Notes under the pieces: model-generated
The model's input: only the letters and a program-made list of their open reading frames with translations
Database searches by the model: none
What the model was told of the DNA's origin: nothing
Position numbers and translations under genes: made by a program
Shown here: positions 6,951 to 11,984 of the stretch, piece by piece
Layout: each line of letters begins with the position of its first letter
How positions within the stretch are numbered: the first letter of the stretch is position 1
Assembly: GCF_016904885.1 (NCBI RefSeq)
Contig: NZ_JADWYI010000001.1
Location: 4,464,001-4,528,000, forward strand
Origin: Archangium primigenium
GTDB lineage: Bacteria > Myxococcota > Myxococcia > Myxococcales > Myxococcaceae
Direction: 5' to 3'
DNA length: 64,000 bases

Positions 6951-7724
6951 TCACGCGCCCGGGAAGTCCTCGGGCGTCGGGGTGAGCACCTCGCACCCCT
7001 CGCGGGTGATGAGCACGGTGTGCTCGAACTGCGCCGAGAGGCGGCCGTCTTCGGTGACGACCGTCCACCCGTCCGGCAGCAGGCGGATGCCCGCGCGGCC
7101 CAGGTTCACCATGGGCTCGATGGTGATGACCATGCCCGAGCGCAGGGTGATGCCCGTGCCCTTCTTGCCCACGTGGGACACATGGGGCGGCCCGTGCATC
7201 TGGTGGCCGATGCCATGGCCGCCGAACTCGGACACCACGCTGCAGCCCTCCTGCTGGGCCAATTCCTGGATGGCGGCGCCGATGTCCCCGAGCTTCGCCC
7301 CGTGGCGCACCACGGCGATGCCCGCGTCCCGGCACCGCCGCGCCACGTCCACCACGTGCCGGGCCTCGTCGGACACCTCGCCGATGAGGAACGTGGCCGA
7401 GGTGTCGCCATGAAAGCCATGGAGGCACGTGGTGACGTCCACGTTGAGGATGTCCCCGGGGCCCACCCGCTCGTCCGCGCGGGGGATGCCGTGGCACACC
7501 ACGTGGTTGCGGCTCGTGCAGACGGCCGCCGGAAAGCCCTTGTAGCCGAGCTGGCTCGGGGTGCCGCCCCGCCGGGCCGTGTCCTCGCGCACCCACCCGT
7601 CGATGTCCGCCGTGGTGATGCCCGGTGCCAGCCTCGACGCCACGTAGGCGAGCGTCCCGGCCGCCGCCCGGCCCGCCAGGCGCAGCCGCTCGACCTCTCC
7701 GTCCTTCATCAATGGAATGCCCAT
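6951..7724 (-). CDS. map: type I methionine aminopeptidase
   Basis: Removes the initiator methionine from new proteins whose second residue is small; a dinuclear metal enzyme of the cytosol. The five metal ligands are recognisable: the two aspartates in LNVDVTTCLHGFHGDTSATF, the histidine in the signature GGHGIGHQMHGPPHVSH, and glutamates in ITIEPMVNLG and FEHTVLI. I start at the ATG at 7724 (MGIPLMKDGEVERL), giving 257 residues, the usual length for the short type Ia enzyme without an N-terminal zinc finger. A longer frame to 7829 would overlap the divergent LysR-like gene and adds no conserved sequence. Myxobacteria commonly carry several map copies, so this may be a paralogue. Confidence 0.94.
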   Translation of the reverse strand: MGIPLMKDGEVERLRLAGRAAAGTLAYVASRLAPGITTADIDGWVREDTARRGGTPSQLGYKGFPAAVCTSRNHVVCHGIPRADERVGPGDILNVDVTTCLHGFHGDTSATFLIGEVSDEARHVVDVARRCRDAGIAVVRHGAKLGDIGAAIQELAQQEGCSVVSEFGGHGIGHQMHGPPHVSHVGKKGTGITLRSGMVITIEPMVNLGRAGIRLLPDGWTVVTEDGRLSAQFEHTVLITREGCEVLTPTPEDFPGA

Positions 7725-7812
7725 GGCGCCACGGTGGCCGCGCCCCGCGCCCGGCGTCCAATGCTGGATGCGCATGAGGCGGGGGGACCGGGAAGCGGTT
7801 AGACTTGGACGC

Positions 7813-8094
7813 GTGAGCCTCACGCACATCCAATCCTTCGTCGCGGTGGCCGAGGAAGGCCACGTGGGCCGTGCCGCGCGCCGGCTCCACCTGTCCCAGC
7901 CGCCGCTCAGCCGTCACATCCTGGCGCTCGAGGATGAACTGGGCGCGCCGCTCTTCGAGCGCACCGCCCGGGGGATGCGCCTGCTGCCCGCGGGCGAGGC
8001 CTTCCTCTCGCACGCCCGCCGCATCCTCGCCGAGGTGGACGCCGCGGTGCACACCGTGCGCGGCGTGGCGGCGGACCGCTCCGGCGGCGCCTGA
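7813..8094 (+). CDS. stand-alone LysR-type DNA-binding domain (effector domain absent)
   Basis: From the GTG at 7813 this gives 93 residues that are only the N-terminal winged helix-turn-helix of a LysR-type regulator: LTHIQSFVAVAEEGHVGRAA, then the recognition helix LHLSQPPLSRHILALE and the wing LGAPLFERTARGMRLLPAGE, ending in the start of the linker helix. A full LysR protein has about 300 residues. The following 130 bases contain no effector domain in any frame, so this is either a truncated regulator or a DNA-binding minimal protein. The linker helix that normally makes dimers is mostly kept. It is divergent from map and 132 bases upstream of the DUF72 gene. Confidence 0.8.
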   Translation: MSLTHIQSFVAVAEEGHVGRAARRLHLSQPPLSRHILALEDELGAPLFERTARGMRLLPAGEAFLSHARRILAEVDAAVHTVRGVAADRSGGA

Positions 8095-8226: not shown

Positions 8227-9273
8227 ATGGCCGAGCAGGATCCTTCCCAACTCGATCTCTTCACCGGAGCGCCCAGCCCCGGGGGGCCCAAGGGCCGCCG
8301 GAGCCGGGGCGAGCCCGTGGGGCCCGCCGGGCAGCCCGAGGACGTCCAGGCGCTGGGGCAGGGGCTGCCCGCGGGCCTCTTCCTGGGCACGTCCTCCTGG
8401 ACCTTTCCGGGCTGGTCGGGGCTCGTCTACGACCGGGAGGCCACGCCCGCGCGCCTGTCCCGGGAGGGGCTCGCGGCCTACGCCCGGCACCCCGTGTTGC
8501 GCACCGTGGGGGTGGACCGGACGTTCTACGCCCCCATCCCGGCCACCACCTTCGCGGAGTACGCCGCCCAGGTGCCCGAGGGCTTCCGCTTCCTCGTGAA
8601 GGCCCATGAAGCCTGCACGCTCGCCCGCTGGCCGCTGCACGCGCGTTATGGCGACGTGCGAGGTCAGCCCAACGAGCGCTTCCTGGACGCCGCCTACGCC
8701 ACGGACCTCGTGGTGGCGCCGTGTGTGGAGGGCCTGGGGGAGAAGGCGGGCCCCATCGTCTTCCAACTGCCGCCGCAGGACGTGCAGGAACTGGGCGGCG
8801 CGGCCCCCTTCATCGAGCGGCTGCACGCCTTCCTCGCGGCGCTGCCCCGGGGGCCGCTCTATGCCGTCGAGGTGCGCAACGAGGCCCTGATGACCGAGGC
8901 CCTGGCCCAGGCGCTCGCGGACGTGGGGGCGGCGCCGGTGCTGGCCGTGTGGAAGAACCTTCCCCCCGTGGAGAAGCAGGCGGTGCGCCTCCGGGCCCTC
9001 CAGGGCCCCGCGCTGGTCGCCCGGTGGATGCTGCCGCCGAACCTGGACTACGAGGAGGCGAGGAAGCGCTACTTCCCCTTCGACCGCCTGGTGGACGAGG
9101 ACCCGAGGACCCGGGAGGGACTCGCCCGCGTGGCCACCGCCGCGCTCAACCTGGGCCGGCCGGTCTTCATCACCCTGAACAACAAGGCCGAGGGCAGCGC
9201 GCCCCTCACCGCCGTGCAGCTTGCGCGGAGCGTCATGTCGCGTAGGCGAAACACTCCGGGTGTGGGCTCTTGA
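8227..9273 (+). CDS. DUF72 family protein
   Basis: A 348-residue member of DUF72 (YecE family), a TIM-barrel-like protein of unknown biochemical role. The family pattern is clear: LFLGTSSWTFPGWSGLVYD near residue 50, VDRTFYAPIPATTFAEYAAQVPEGFRFLVKAHE, then FQLPPQ, and YAVEVRNEAL. The N-terminal 45 residues (Pro/Gly-rich, QLDLF at the start) are extra to the domain. The Shine-Dalgarno ACGAGGAG stands six bases before ATG 8227. The preceding gene is a LysR DNA-binding domain in the same direction. No function is proposed beyond the family name; DUF72 proteins have been linked to DNA repair context in some genomes, but nothing here shows it. Confidence 0.9.
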   Translation: MAEQDPSQLDLFTGAPSPGGPKGRRSRGEPVGPAGQPEDVQALGQGLPAGLFLGTSSWTFPGWSGLVYDREATPARLSREGLAAYARHPVLRTVGVDRTFYAPIPATTFAEYAAQVPEGFRFLVKAHEACTLARWPLHARYGDVRGQPNERFLDAAYATDLVVAPCVEGLGEKAGPIVFQLPPQDVQELGGAAPFIERLHAFLAALPRGPLYAVEVRNEALMTEALAQALADVGAAPVLAVWKNLPPVEKQAVRLRALQGPALVARWMLPPNLDYEEARKRYFPFDRLVDEDPRTREGLARVATAALNLGRPVFITLNNKAEGSAPLTAVQLARSVMSRRRNTPGVGS

Positions 9274-9329
9274 TCACCCTCCGTCCCGGGGTACGCTTCG
9301 CTCGTGGGGCCCTCAACAGCTCTGACCAT

Positions 9330-9345
9330 TGGCACGCGGCTTGCT
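9330..9345 (+). promoter_or_regulatory. sigma-54 promoter (-24/-12), perfect consensus
   Basis: TGGCACGCGGCTTGCT carries the -24 GG (9331-9332) and -12 GC (9343-9344) dinucleotides at the right spacing and fits the full extended consensus YTGGCACG-N4-TTGCW, including the flanking T at 9329 and the A at 9348. Transcription would start near 9356, only about three bases before the ATG at 9359. The downstream small ORF would therefore be nearly leaderless, or the region would act as a leader for the Smr gene. A sigma-54 promoter needs an enhancer-binding protein, of which myxobacteria have many; none is encoded in this window. Confidence 0.75.
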
Positions 9346-9358
9346 TCAAGGGAGAAGC

Positions 9359-9607
9359 ATGAAATCGGTCCTAGTCGCGGCGATGGTGGTACGCATGGCA
9401 GCGGCCGGTGGTGCCGGCTCGGGGGTCGAGTCCCAGGCCCAAACCGTGCGAGCGGGAGATAGCTGGGAAGACGTGCGTAAACATTTTTCCGCCCTGCGTA
9501 GCGAGGTCTCCACCTTGGAGAGCGAGTATCAGAGCGCGCTGGAGCGGCGGCGGCAGGAAGCACTGCGTCGTCACGACGAGTCAGAGCGCGCGCGCCGTGG
9601 GCGTTGA
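9359..9607 (+). CDS. small hypothetical protein, possible signal peptide and coiled coil
   Basis: ORF of 82 codons from ATG 9359. Residues 1-25 ([18 protein letters not shown]...) resemble a signal peptide, though an arginine interrupts the hydrophobic core. The rest is charged and helical ([35 protein letters not shown]), with heptad-like spacing suggesting a short coiled coil. The sequence AAGGGAGAAG before the ATG looks like a ribosome binding site. However, the sigma-54 promoter at 9330-9345 predicts a transcript starting at about 9356, which would exclude that site. The ORF overlaps the likely start of the Smr gene by 11 bases. I do not recognise a family; it could be a real small exported protein or a leader. 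Confidence 0.5.
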
Positions 9608-9917
9608 GGAGGACAGGGACGGGTCCGACGACGATTTCGACCCCGAGGCGCCGGTCGCGCTGCCTCTGGACGGGACCCTGGACCTGCACCTCTTCCGCCC
9701 CCAGGACGTGAAGGACGTCGTGACGGAGTACCTGCGGGCGTGCCGGGACGCGGGCGTGCTGGACATCCGCATCATCCACGGCAAGGGCACGGGCGCGCTG
9801 CGGCGCACGGTCCAGACGCTGCTCCCCCGATTGCCCGAGGTCGAGTCGTTCCGGTCCGCCTCCGAGGCCGATGGCGGATGGGGCGCCACGTGGGTGCGGT
9901 TGAAAAGGTCCGGCTGA
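9597..9917 (+). CDS. Smr/MutS2 C-terminal domain protein
   Basis: Small stand-alone Smr domain protein, about 106 residues from GTG 9597. The hallmarks are the [19 protein letters not shown] helix-start motif (L-D-L-H) and the loop [16 protein letters not shown] (H-G-K-G-T/S-G), which form the nicking-endonuclease-like active region of Smr proteins. The C-terminal strand [12 protein letters not shown] closes the domain. Stand-alone Smr proteins act on branched DNA or, as recently shown for other members, on RNA in ribosome rescue; which applies here is unknown. The true start is uncertain: the frame is open upstream to 9408, but that part is out-of-family and overlaps the small ORF. It probably shares the sigma-54 promoter. 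Confidence 0.85.
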
Positions 9918-9930
9918 AACCCTGAAGGGC

Positions 9931-10251
9931 TTAGTGGGTGTCCGGCAGGGTGTCCGGAAGAATCTTCAGGATCTGCTGGTAGAAATCTTCCCGCTCGCTC
10001 ACGGGATCCACCGCATAGCAGCCGCCCGTGGAGCCCCCCTGGCCCGGCGGAATCACCGCCATGACGCGGGCCTTGGGACAGATGTCCATGCAGCTCATCT
10101 TGAGGATGTGCACGTCATCCTCGTGCCCCTCGGCGCGCAGCTTGTGCTCGAGCCACTTGCGCAGATCAATCTTGTCGTTGCCCGAGCACTTCTTGCACAC
10201 GAGCACGAAGCCAGACTTCCAGGGCGGTCGGACGGGTCGAGCGGCGGCCAT
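9931..10251 (-). CDS. (2Fe-2S) ferredoxin domain protein, thioredoxin-like fold
   Basis: A 106-residue protein resembling the thioredoxin-like [2Fe-2S] ferredoxins (shethna protein/NuoE-type fold). The cysteines appear as FVLVCKKCSGN near the start and MSCMDICPKARVMAVIPPG in the second half; Cys-x3-Cys-Pro-Lys with the following VMA(V/I) strand is the typical ligand pair. GGCY adds another cysteine. It probably carries electrons in the cytosol. It is convergent with the Smr gene (13 bases between stops) and divergent from the acyl-CoA ligase gene. No partner reductase is adjacent. Confidence 0.87.
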   Translation of the reverse strand: MAAARPVRPPWKSGFVLVCKKCSGNDKIDLRKWLEHKLRAEGHEDDVHILKMSCMDICPKARVMAVIPPGQGGSTGGCYAVDPVSEREDFYQQILKILPDTLPDTH

Positions 10252-10367
10252 GAAGGCAAGGTAACGACCGCTCCTTCCGTTGGCCCGGCCATTCTCACCA
10301 GCTCTCTCGGAGAGCAGGCGGCCTGTGCCATCATCCGACGCCCTCGGAGTGGCAAGGAGATCCCCAC

Positions 10368-11984
10368 GTGGAGAAGCGCTGGCTCAATCACTATCCCCCG
10401 GAAGTTCCCGCTGAGATCGACGGTGCGCGCTCCACCTCGCTCGTCCAGTTCCTGGAGGCGTCCTTCCACCAGTTCGCCGAGCGTCCGGCGTTCGAGTGCC
10501 TGGGCCAATCCCTGACCTACGGCGAGCTGGACGCCCGGTCACGCCAGGTGGCGGCGTGGCTTCAGGCCCGGGGGCTCGGGCGAGGCGCGGCCGTGGCGCT
10601 CATGATGCCCAACACCCTGGCCTATCCCGTCTGGGTCGCGGCCCTCCTGCGCGCGGGCTGCACCGTGGTGAACGTCAACCCGCTCTTCACCCCGCGCGAG
10701 CTGGAGTACCAACTCCAGGACAGCGGGGCGGTGGCGCTCGTCATTTTGGAGGCCTTCGTCCCCACCTTCCAGAAGGTCCAGGGGCGCACGGCCGTGCGGC
10801 ACGTGGTGACGGTCTCCGCGGGCGCGCCGGGGAGTGCCTCCGTCCTGCCCGAGGCCATTCCTTTCGAGCGGGTGCTGGCCGAGGGCCAATCGCTGTCATT
10901 CACGCCCGTTCCGGTATCGCCAGAGGACGTCGCCTTCCTCCAATACACGGGCGGCACCACGGGCGTGGTCAAGGGCGCGATGCTGCTGCACCGCAACCTC
11001 CTCGCGAGCCTGGCGCAGACCGAGGCCTGGCTGCGGCCCGCCTTGCGCAAGCGGCCCGATCAACCCCTGACCTTCGTGTGCGTGCTGCCGCTCTACCATA
11101 TCTACGCGCTCAACAACTGCGCGCTGCTGGGCATGCGGCTGGGCGCGCTGAACATCCTCCTCCCCAACCCGAGGGACCTGGCGGGCATCATCCAGACACT
11201 GGCGGGGCGGCCCCTGCATGTGCTGCCGGCGGTGAACACCTTCTTCAACGCGCTCCTCCACCATCCGGAGCTGGGCCGGCTGGACTTGTCCCAGTTGCTC
11301 ATCGCCAACACCGGAGGCGAGGCGGCGCAGCGGGCGGTGGCGGAGAAGTGGTTCGCGCTCACGGGCGTGCCGCTCATCGAGAGCTATGGCCTGACGGAGA
11401 CGTCGCCCGGGGTGGCGAGCAATCCGGTCACCGCCCCGGAGTTCTCCGGAGGCATCGGCATGCCACTGCCGTCCACCGAGGTCGCCCTGCGGGATGACGA
11501 GGGCAGGGACGTGGCGCTGCACGAGCCCGGGGAGATCTGCATCCGCGGCCCCCAGGTGATGGCGGGCTACTGGAACCGCCCGGAGGAGACGGTCCGGGTG
11601 ATGACGGCGGACGGCTTCCTCAAGTCTGGCGACATCGGGGTCATGGACGAGCGCGGCTTCCTGCGCATCGTGGACCGCAAGAAGGACATGATCCTCGTGT
11701 CTGGGTTCAACGTCTATCCCAACGAGGTCGAGGGCGTGGTGGCCGCGCACCCCGGCGTGCTGGAGGTGGCGGCCGTGGGCGTGCCCGACGAGCGCTCGGG
11801 CGAGGCGGTGAAGCTCTTCGTGGTGAAGAAGGACGCGGCGCTCACCGAGGAGCAATTGCAGGCGTTCTGCCGGGAGCAGCTCACGGGCTACAAGCGGCCC
11901 AAGCTCATCGAGTTCCGCGCCGAGCTGCCCAAGAGCAACGTGGGGAAGATCCTCCGCCGGGAATTGAGGGCGCCCGCGGGCTGA
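10368..11984 (+). CDS. long-chain fatty acid--CoA ligase (AMP-forming)
   Basis: Member of the ANL adenylating superfamily, closest in layout to FadD: it activates a fatty acid with ATP to acyl-AMP and then makes the CoA thioester. Length is 538 residues. The motifs in order are the phosphate loop YTGGTTGVVKGAMLLHRN, the substrate/adenine motif SYGLTETSPGV, the hinge GDIGVMDERGFLRIVDRKKDMI with the conserved Asp and Arg, VSGFNVYPNEVE, and the catalytic lysine near the end in PKSNVGKILRREL. The GTG start at 10368 has a good Shine-Dalgarno, AAGGAGA. It is monocistronic here. It could feed beta-oxidation such as the acyl-CoA enzymes at 36616-40730, or lipid synthesis. Confidence 0.93.
   Translation: MEKRWLNHYPPEVPAEIDGARSTSLVQFLEASFHQFAERPAFECLGQSLTYGELDARSRQVAAWLQARGLGRGAAVALMMPNTLAYPVWVAALLRAGCTVVNVNPLFTPRELEYQLQDSGAVALVILEAFVPTFQKVQGRTAVRHVVTVSAGAPGSASVLPEAIPFERVLAEGQSLSFTPVPVSPEDVAFLQYTGGTTGVVKGAMLLHRNLLASLAQTEAWLRPALRKRPDQPLTFVCVLPLYHIYALNNCALLGMRLGALNILLPNPRDLAGIIQTLAGRPLHVLPAVNTFFNALLHHPELGRLDLSQLLIANTGGEAAQRAVAEKWFALTGVPLIESYGLTETSPGVASNPVTAPEFSGGIGMPLPSTEVALRDDEGRDVALHEPGEICIRGPQVMAGYWNRPEETVRVMTADGFLKSGDIGVMDERGFLRIVDRKKDMILVSGFNVYPNEVEGVVAAHPGVLEVAAVGVPDERSGEAVKLFVVKKDAALTEEQLQAFCREQLTGYKRPKLIEFRAELPKSNVGKILRRELRAPAG

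Follow-up and report, generated by a model that had tools for sequence, protein, structure and literature searches.

We report that a 64,000-nt stretch of DNA (hereafter the window) carries a full match to the sigma-54 promoter consensus directly before a conserved small open reading frame (ORF), the end of which overlaps a gene for an Smr-domain protein. On balance, and going by sequence comparison, we favor the reading that a sigma-54-type promoter placed 0-3 nt before the ATG of the small ORF would give a leaderless message, that Smr would be translated by coupling, and that the locus would represent one case of a layout that recurs in the Myxococcota. This reading builds on the motif, its fixed spacing to the ATG, the coding small ORF, the Smr overlap and the recurrence of the layout, all of which are observed. 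Specifically, the sigma-54 polymerase, opened by an activator protein, would start transcription 0-3 nt before the ATG; the message, with a 5' UTR of 0-3 nt, would be read leaderless, and Smr, with its start codon inside the small ORF, would be translated off the same message. In the window's own genus a message read through from the upstream DUF72 gene would carry a Shine-Dalgarno sequence, and a second, leadered mode of translation may coexist there. The features at the locus are given below, with positions counted in the window.

8227-9273, + strand: DUF72 gene, 348 aa, conserved upstream neighbor and possible source of read-through
9330-9335, + strand: -24 element TGGCAC, matching the consensus, with the GG of -25/-24 at 9331-9332
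9341-9345, + strand: -12 element TTGCT, matching the consensus, with the GC of -13/-12 at 9343-9344
9350-9354, + strand: Shine-Dalgarno-like GGGAG, 5' of the predicted +1
9356, + strand: predicted transcription start, placed 12 nt past C9344 taken as -12
9359-9607, + strand: small ORF, 82 aa, conserved, with no Pfam or NCBIfam family
9597-9917, + strand: gene for an Smr-domain protein (PF01713), 106 aa, with a GTG start inside the end of the small ORF

The sequence TGGCACGCGGCTTGCT (9330-9345, + strand) matches all fixed positions of the sigma-54 consensus, and the correct -24/-12 spacing given in the preliminary description was confirmed. It is the single exact match to TGGCACN5TTGCW in the window and is still the sole match when one mismatch is allowed (1.56 expected). 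If C9344 is -12 and +1 is 9356, the ATG at 9359-9361 begins at base +4; the geometry of a predicted start three bases before the ATG, described earlier, holds, as does the earlier point that GGGAG at 9350-9354 lies upstream of the predicted +1 and would stay off a transcript starting at 9356. With respect to activator binding, no Nla28 half site, the only activator site type modelled, was found in 9101-9330, and no dyad of at least 7 bases in 9150-9329.

The 9.49 Mb source genome has one Sigma54_DBD match (E 1.5e-64), and by this domain it carries rpoN, the product of which is reported to be essential in M. xanthus (PMC12316311). TGGCACN5TTGCW has seven exact sites in this genome versus none for the reversed pattern; composition alone predicts 5.5, so the genome count argues only weakly for function. 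That the motif in the window is a chance match is instead ruled out by its conservation amid a background that has turned over, and it is this conservation that places the site above chance.

The pattern GC[A/G][C/T]-N5-TTGC[T/C] precedes the ATG in all 64 small-ORF loci read, in rows gathered with a regular expression in which GC, N5 and TTGC close to the ORF were already a requirement. Seventy loci were read in total and the six without the pattern are accounted for, so that absence of the motif excluded no small-ORF locus: L095 is a contig edge and the promoter of the same genome is seen in L127, L104-L107 have Smr but no credible small ORF, and L108 is a spurious weak hit. The distance from the GC of the -24 element to the ATG is 27 nt in 59 loci, 26 nt in three and 28 nt in two. 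TTGC is invariant and T at -11 is present in 63/64. Loss of the GG and GC dinucleotides in relatives was the point that the preliminary description had singled out: the -24 G and the -13/-12 GC are kept in 64/64 loci, at the correct spacing, and the -25 G is found in only six (4/4 in the own genus, plus G001 and G073), so that the outcome is mixed and in part goes against the promoter. The description of the promoter as perfect consequently applies to the window's genus and not to the family.

Around these positions the sequence has changed extensively. Between genera, GCAC differs on average by 0.052 and TTGCT by 0.008, compared to means of 0.504 for N5, 0.609 for the 11 nt that follow TTGCT, 0.645 for the upstream sequence and 0.639 for third codon positions, i.e. 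the two elements and their distance to the ATG have been held while the surroundings have turned over. An ATG at a constrained distance from the promoter is what is looked for in a leaderless mRNA, and here it lies within 26-28 nt in every locus; since this spacing is fixed while the intervening bases have turned over, a leaderless message fits the data.

Unlikely, although to be taken seriously, is the alternative that most translation of the small ORF and Smr draws on a leadered message, either read through from DUF72 or begun at an unseen upstream start, by way of the Shine-Dalgarno sequence at 9350-9354, with the -24/-12 site being minor or conditional. The DUF72 gene runs in the same direction, with its end 56 nt upstream of the motif; it was present upstream of Smr in 13/13 named loci tested (66 fetched), 12 of which carry the motif, and in a more distant relative (L193) DUF72 and Smr are neighbors with neither the motif nor, at the locus read in that genome (L104), a credible small ORF. 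Moreover, the Shine-Dalgarno 4-mer is present in 4/4 members of the own genus, where pairing is strong (mean energy -10.6), and such a good Shine-Dalgarno-like sequence, needless for a purely leaderless gene, counts against the leaderless reading. However, among 62 loci (the two with 28 nt spacing being left out of these tests) the 4-mer is present in 23 and absent in 39, including all 15 from Corallococcus, and yet the spacing between motif and ATG is fixed; nor was any sigma-70-like promoter found at 9200-10400.

We consider it rather improbable that the box in most relatives is the site of another promoter or regulator, e.g. an extended -10 (TGnT...) sigma-70 promoter that would also give a leaderless message, and that the own genus has drifted to the sigma-54 consensus. 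Position -25 is A, T or C in 58/64 loci while -26 is G in 55/64, which makes sigma-54 use less certain in the relatives and weakens the case for family-wide sigma-54 control, and the -25 G is nearly universal at the other layout sites of the family (see below). An extended -10, TGnTA, has also been described upstream of leaderless mRNAs in the excerpted text on Bradyrhizobium (PMC4842269). For TGnTA, however, an A is expected after TTGCT, and this base is A in only nine of the 64 loci (T in 52, G in three); an extended -10 would also leave the conserved GCAC ten bases upstream unexplained. Furthermore, one-base deviations are reported for sigma-54 promoters of M. xanthus: according to the excerpted text of PMC7910581, 1-bp changes in GG or GC occur among the characterised promoters, and one tested promoter has GA.

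Turning to the product, the small ORF, as judged from comparative analysis, encodes a conserved protein and lies upstream of Smr in the Myxococcaceae. It was found in 66 of 145 genomes of the order, a few of these being weak second hits or probably spurious (G043). By eye, the N-terminus of the protein is basic and hydrophobic and includes a nearly invariant AGGAG, and the rest of the chain is charged and resembles a coiled coil; no family match was obtained in Pfam or NCBIfam. When the entire ORF is counted, third codon positions change most often in 5/5 genera, and the same excess is seen in codons 2-22 in 4/5, Archangium being even between first and third positions. Non-synonymous codon differences outnumber synonymous ones in 4/5 genera, so the small protein is fast-evolving. 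An upstream extension of the ORF through the motif, which the open frame of the window would allow (TTG at 9329), was rejected since a stop or a one-base shift interrupts it in some relatives (by eye).

It is very improbable that 9356-9596 instead is a structured leader or small RNA for Smr with the small ORF untranslated, and this was rejected on folding and codon-position evidence: although the Smr ORF follows directly and the excess of non-synonymous differences over the whole ORF would suit it, RNA 9356-9607 folds no better than its shuffles (z +1.09; 171 of 200 fold at least as well), changes concentrate at third positions, and the small ORF is kept in two genomes in which no Smr was detected. 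A leaderless small ORF and a structured leader or small RNA were the two options offered in the preliminary description; the former gains from the fixed spacing and the frequent absence of the Shine-Dalgarno 4-mer, and the latter finds no support.

The Smr domain (PF01713) scores 82.5 bits against a cut-off of 25.7 over profile positions 1-77 of 77. The protein falls below the NCBIfam cut-offs for SmrA (43.5 versus 180), SmrB (31.1 versus 128) and MutS2, and the four solved sequences that match it are MutS2 proteins, the Smr domain of which it resembles. It thereby shares with stand-alone Smr proteins, SmrA, SmrB and the C-terminal domain of MutS2 an Smr domain well over the Pfam cut-off, and unlike SmrA, SmrB and MutS2 it is below their NCBIfam cut-offs and overlaps a small ORF. 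E. coli SmrB is, in the excerpted text of PMC10897456, a nuclease that cleaves mRNA at ribosome collisions, and by analogy a role in ribosome rescue is possible for the protein encoded here.

The two genes, which had been described as abutting, are adjacent and in fact overlap by 11 nt given the GTG start of Smr. Start codons (ATG, GTG or TTG) in the Smr frame lie inside the small ORF in 61/61 genomes examined, five of which have a further candidate Smr start codon just past it; the overlap suggests that translation of Smr may be coupled to that of the small ORF. Relatives of Smr were found in 67 of 96 family genomes, and the named ones include Archangium, Corallococcus, Hyalangium, Myxococcus and Pyxidicoccus, which places the window in a myxobacterium of this family. 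A record titled Comamonas sp. KCTC 72670 (L175) has a Myxococcus-type Smr locus and is probably mislabelled. Two genomes (G014 and G015) keep the order DUF72, promoter and small ORF, and no Smr was found there when sought. From this comparison the promoter and the small ORF look to travel together with Smr as an optional member, and the persistence of this pair in both genomes, where Smr was not detected, suggests that the promoter mainly serves the small protein. Sigma-54 control of Smr, as first proposed, hence needs rewording: Smr is the downstream, overlapping cistron of a unit that persists without it in two genomes. At loci of the G014/G015 type (L083, L084) the ORF downstream of the small ORF is convergent and by eye helicase-like.

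As judged from pattern counts, a -24/-12 layout abutting start codons recurs in the phylum of the window (Myxococcota, judged from named relatives). In 96 family genomes GCACN5TTGCTN{12,13}ATG has 318 matches versus 35 for the reversed pattern, and GGCACN5TTGCTN{12,13}ATG has 228 versus 10. The small-ORF locus makes up about 58 of the 318, which by subtraction leaves about 37 sites without the -25 G versus 25 in the control; elsewhere in the family the layout would thus almost always include the -25 G. With the spacer one base short there were 69 matches in the same 96 genomes versus 9 for its own reversed pattern, so that the correct spacing is 3.3 times commoner (228 versus 69, with orthologs counted separately in both); because the shorter spacer also exceeds its own control, some of the enrichment is independent of sigma-54 spacing. 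Repeats of near-identical sequence help to lift the shorter-spacer count above background: by eye, 38 of its 69 matches belong to six such groups, and one group may represent a further promoter family. A shorter-spacer sequence, GGCACGT(T/A)CTTGCTCAG..., lies 12 nt before an ATG in 20 genomes of the genus Myxococcus (by eye); this may be another conserved unit.

In eight family genomes the distance from TTGCT to the ATG shows a peak at 12-13 nt, with 44 of 145 matches where about 9 would be expected if the distribution were flat; these are 145 of 169 matches, all from eight of ten genomes (G059 and G081 were left out). A further histogram, drawn from 107 of 150 listed matches, has a second peak four bases further on that consists partly of repeated orthologs. 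Outside the family but within the phylum the layout has 123 matches versus 5 in the control (70 genomes). No gap peak was found in 27 genomes titled as other groups, compared regardless of GC content and including four titled only 'Deltaproteobacteria', the phylum of which is unsettled: 9 of 134 matches have gaps of 12-13 (134 of 139, the five omitted being near-duplicates with gaps of 24-26). This contradicts the idea that such words show the peak before ATG codons in general. The distance peak is built on exact patterns and on ATG codons as found rather than on annotated genes.

Of 40 layout sites, drawn from 11 genomes, 35 begin an ORF of 77 aa or longer, and these 35 proteins include a single ortholog cluster, with four members, and a single weak match between two proteins, by which ortholog redundancy was rejected as the source of the distance peak. 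A signal-like N-terminus was predicted for 16 of the 35 versus 9 of 70 ORFs from the window, and a crude regular expression for lipoproteins matched 5/35 versus 0/70. Many of the layout ORFs extend further upstream in frame; their ATG was taken as found and is a putative start. In L289 a sigma-factor-like start lies 24 residues on, and the true start may be elsewhere.

Taken further, and with the chances in our view somewhat short of even, these patterns might reflect a Myxococcota-wide gene class, rich in envelope and secreted proteins, in which sigma-54 promoters are placed for leaderless messages and activator control would be tied to Shine-Dalgarno-free translation; the small-ORF/Smr operon would be among its most conserved members and would link it to a possible ribosome-rescue nuclease.

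Leaderless messages and sigma-54 promoters are each known on their own. No account of a class that joins them turned up in the open-license literature, which was the scope of the search (subscription journals, preprints and supplementary tables lie outside it). The sigma-54 promoters of M. xanthus, e.g. those regulated by Nla28, have the consensus TGGCACG-N4-TTGC(T/A) in the excerpted text of PMC7910581, and the site in the window shares with them the GG/GC hallmarks, the spacing and the tolerated single-base deviations. The Nla28-regulated promoters in that text are often inside coding sequence; in contrast to the M. xanthus promoters treated there, the start codon here would be at about +3/+4 and the -25 position is not conserved in relatives. 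Among leaderless systems, the available portions of the sources describe a -10 motif that abuts the ORF in Deinococcus-Thermus (PMC12340547) and sigma-70-type leaderless promoters in Campylobacter (PMC3847290) and Bradyrhizobium (PMC4842269). Common to these and the present case is a promoter element a short distance from the start codon; however, the element is a sigma-70-type -10 in those three and a -24/-12 here, hence presumably activator-dependent. If the favored reading is true, a promoter under activator control would supply messages for leaderless initiation, and the way in which myxobacterial start codons are annotated and expression is modelled would change.

The other exact TGGCACN5TTGCW sites in the source genome are of interest in their own right. 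Three of the seven (3111448, 6526852 and 6933332) lie upstream of genes for sigma-70-family sigma factors, which suggests a cascade from sigma-54 to the sigma-70 family. One lies 58 nt before an amidohydrolase-like ORF, another 177 nt before a GGDEF ORF, and the one at 3465456 between a sigma-54 activator gene and a type II secretion C gene. The type II secretion C promoter is present with TGG kept in 15 of 25 genomes from six genera (by eye), at a variable distance to the ATG; the search pattern finds TGG-keeping sites only, and the number therefore speaks to retention and cannot show loss. Five of the 14 loci outside the source genome were checked and are orthologs with 69-85% identity.

Finally, two neighboring ORFs in the window were noted. 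The one at 9931-10251 (- strand) encodes a 106-aa cysteine-containing protein that by eye is ferredoxin-like, with no Pfam or NCBIfam match. The short ORF at 7717-8094 has a LysR-type helix-turn-helix (PF00126) as its only Pfam match, with no effector domain, and is by its predicted domain content a truncated regulator or pseudogene.
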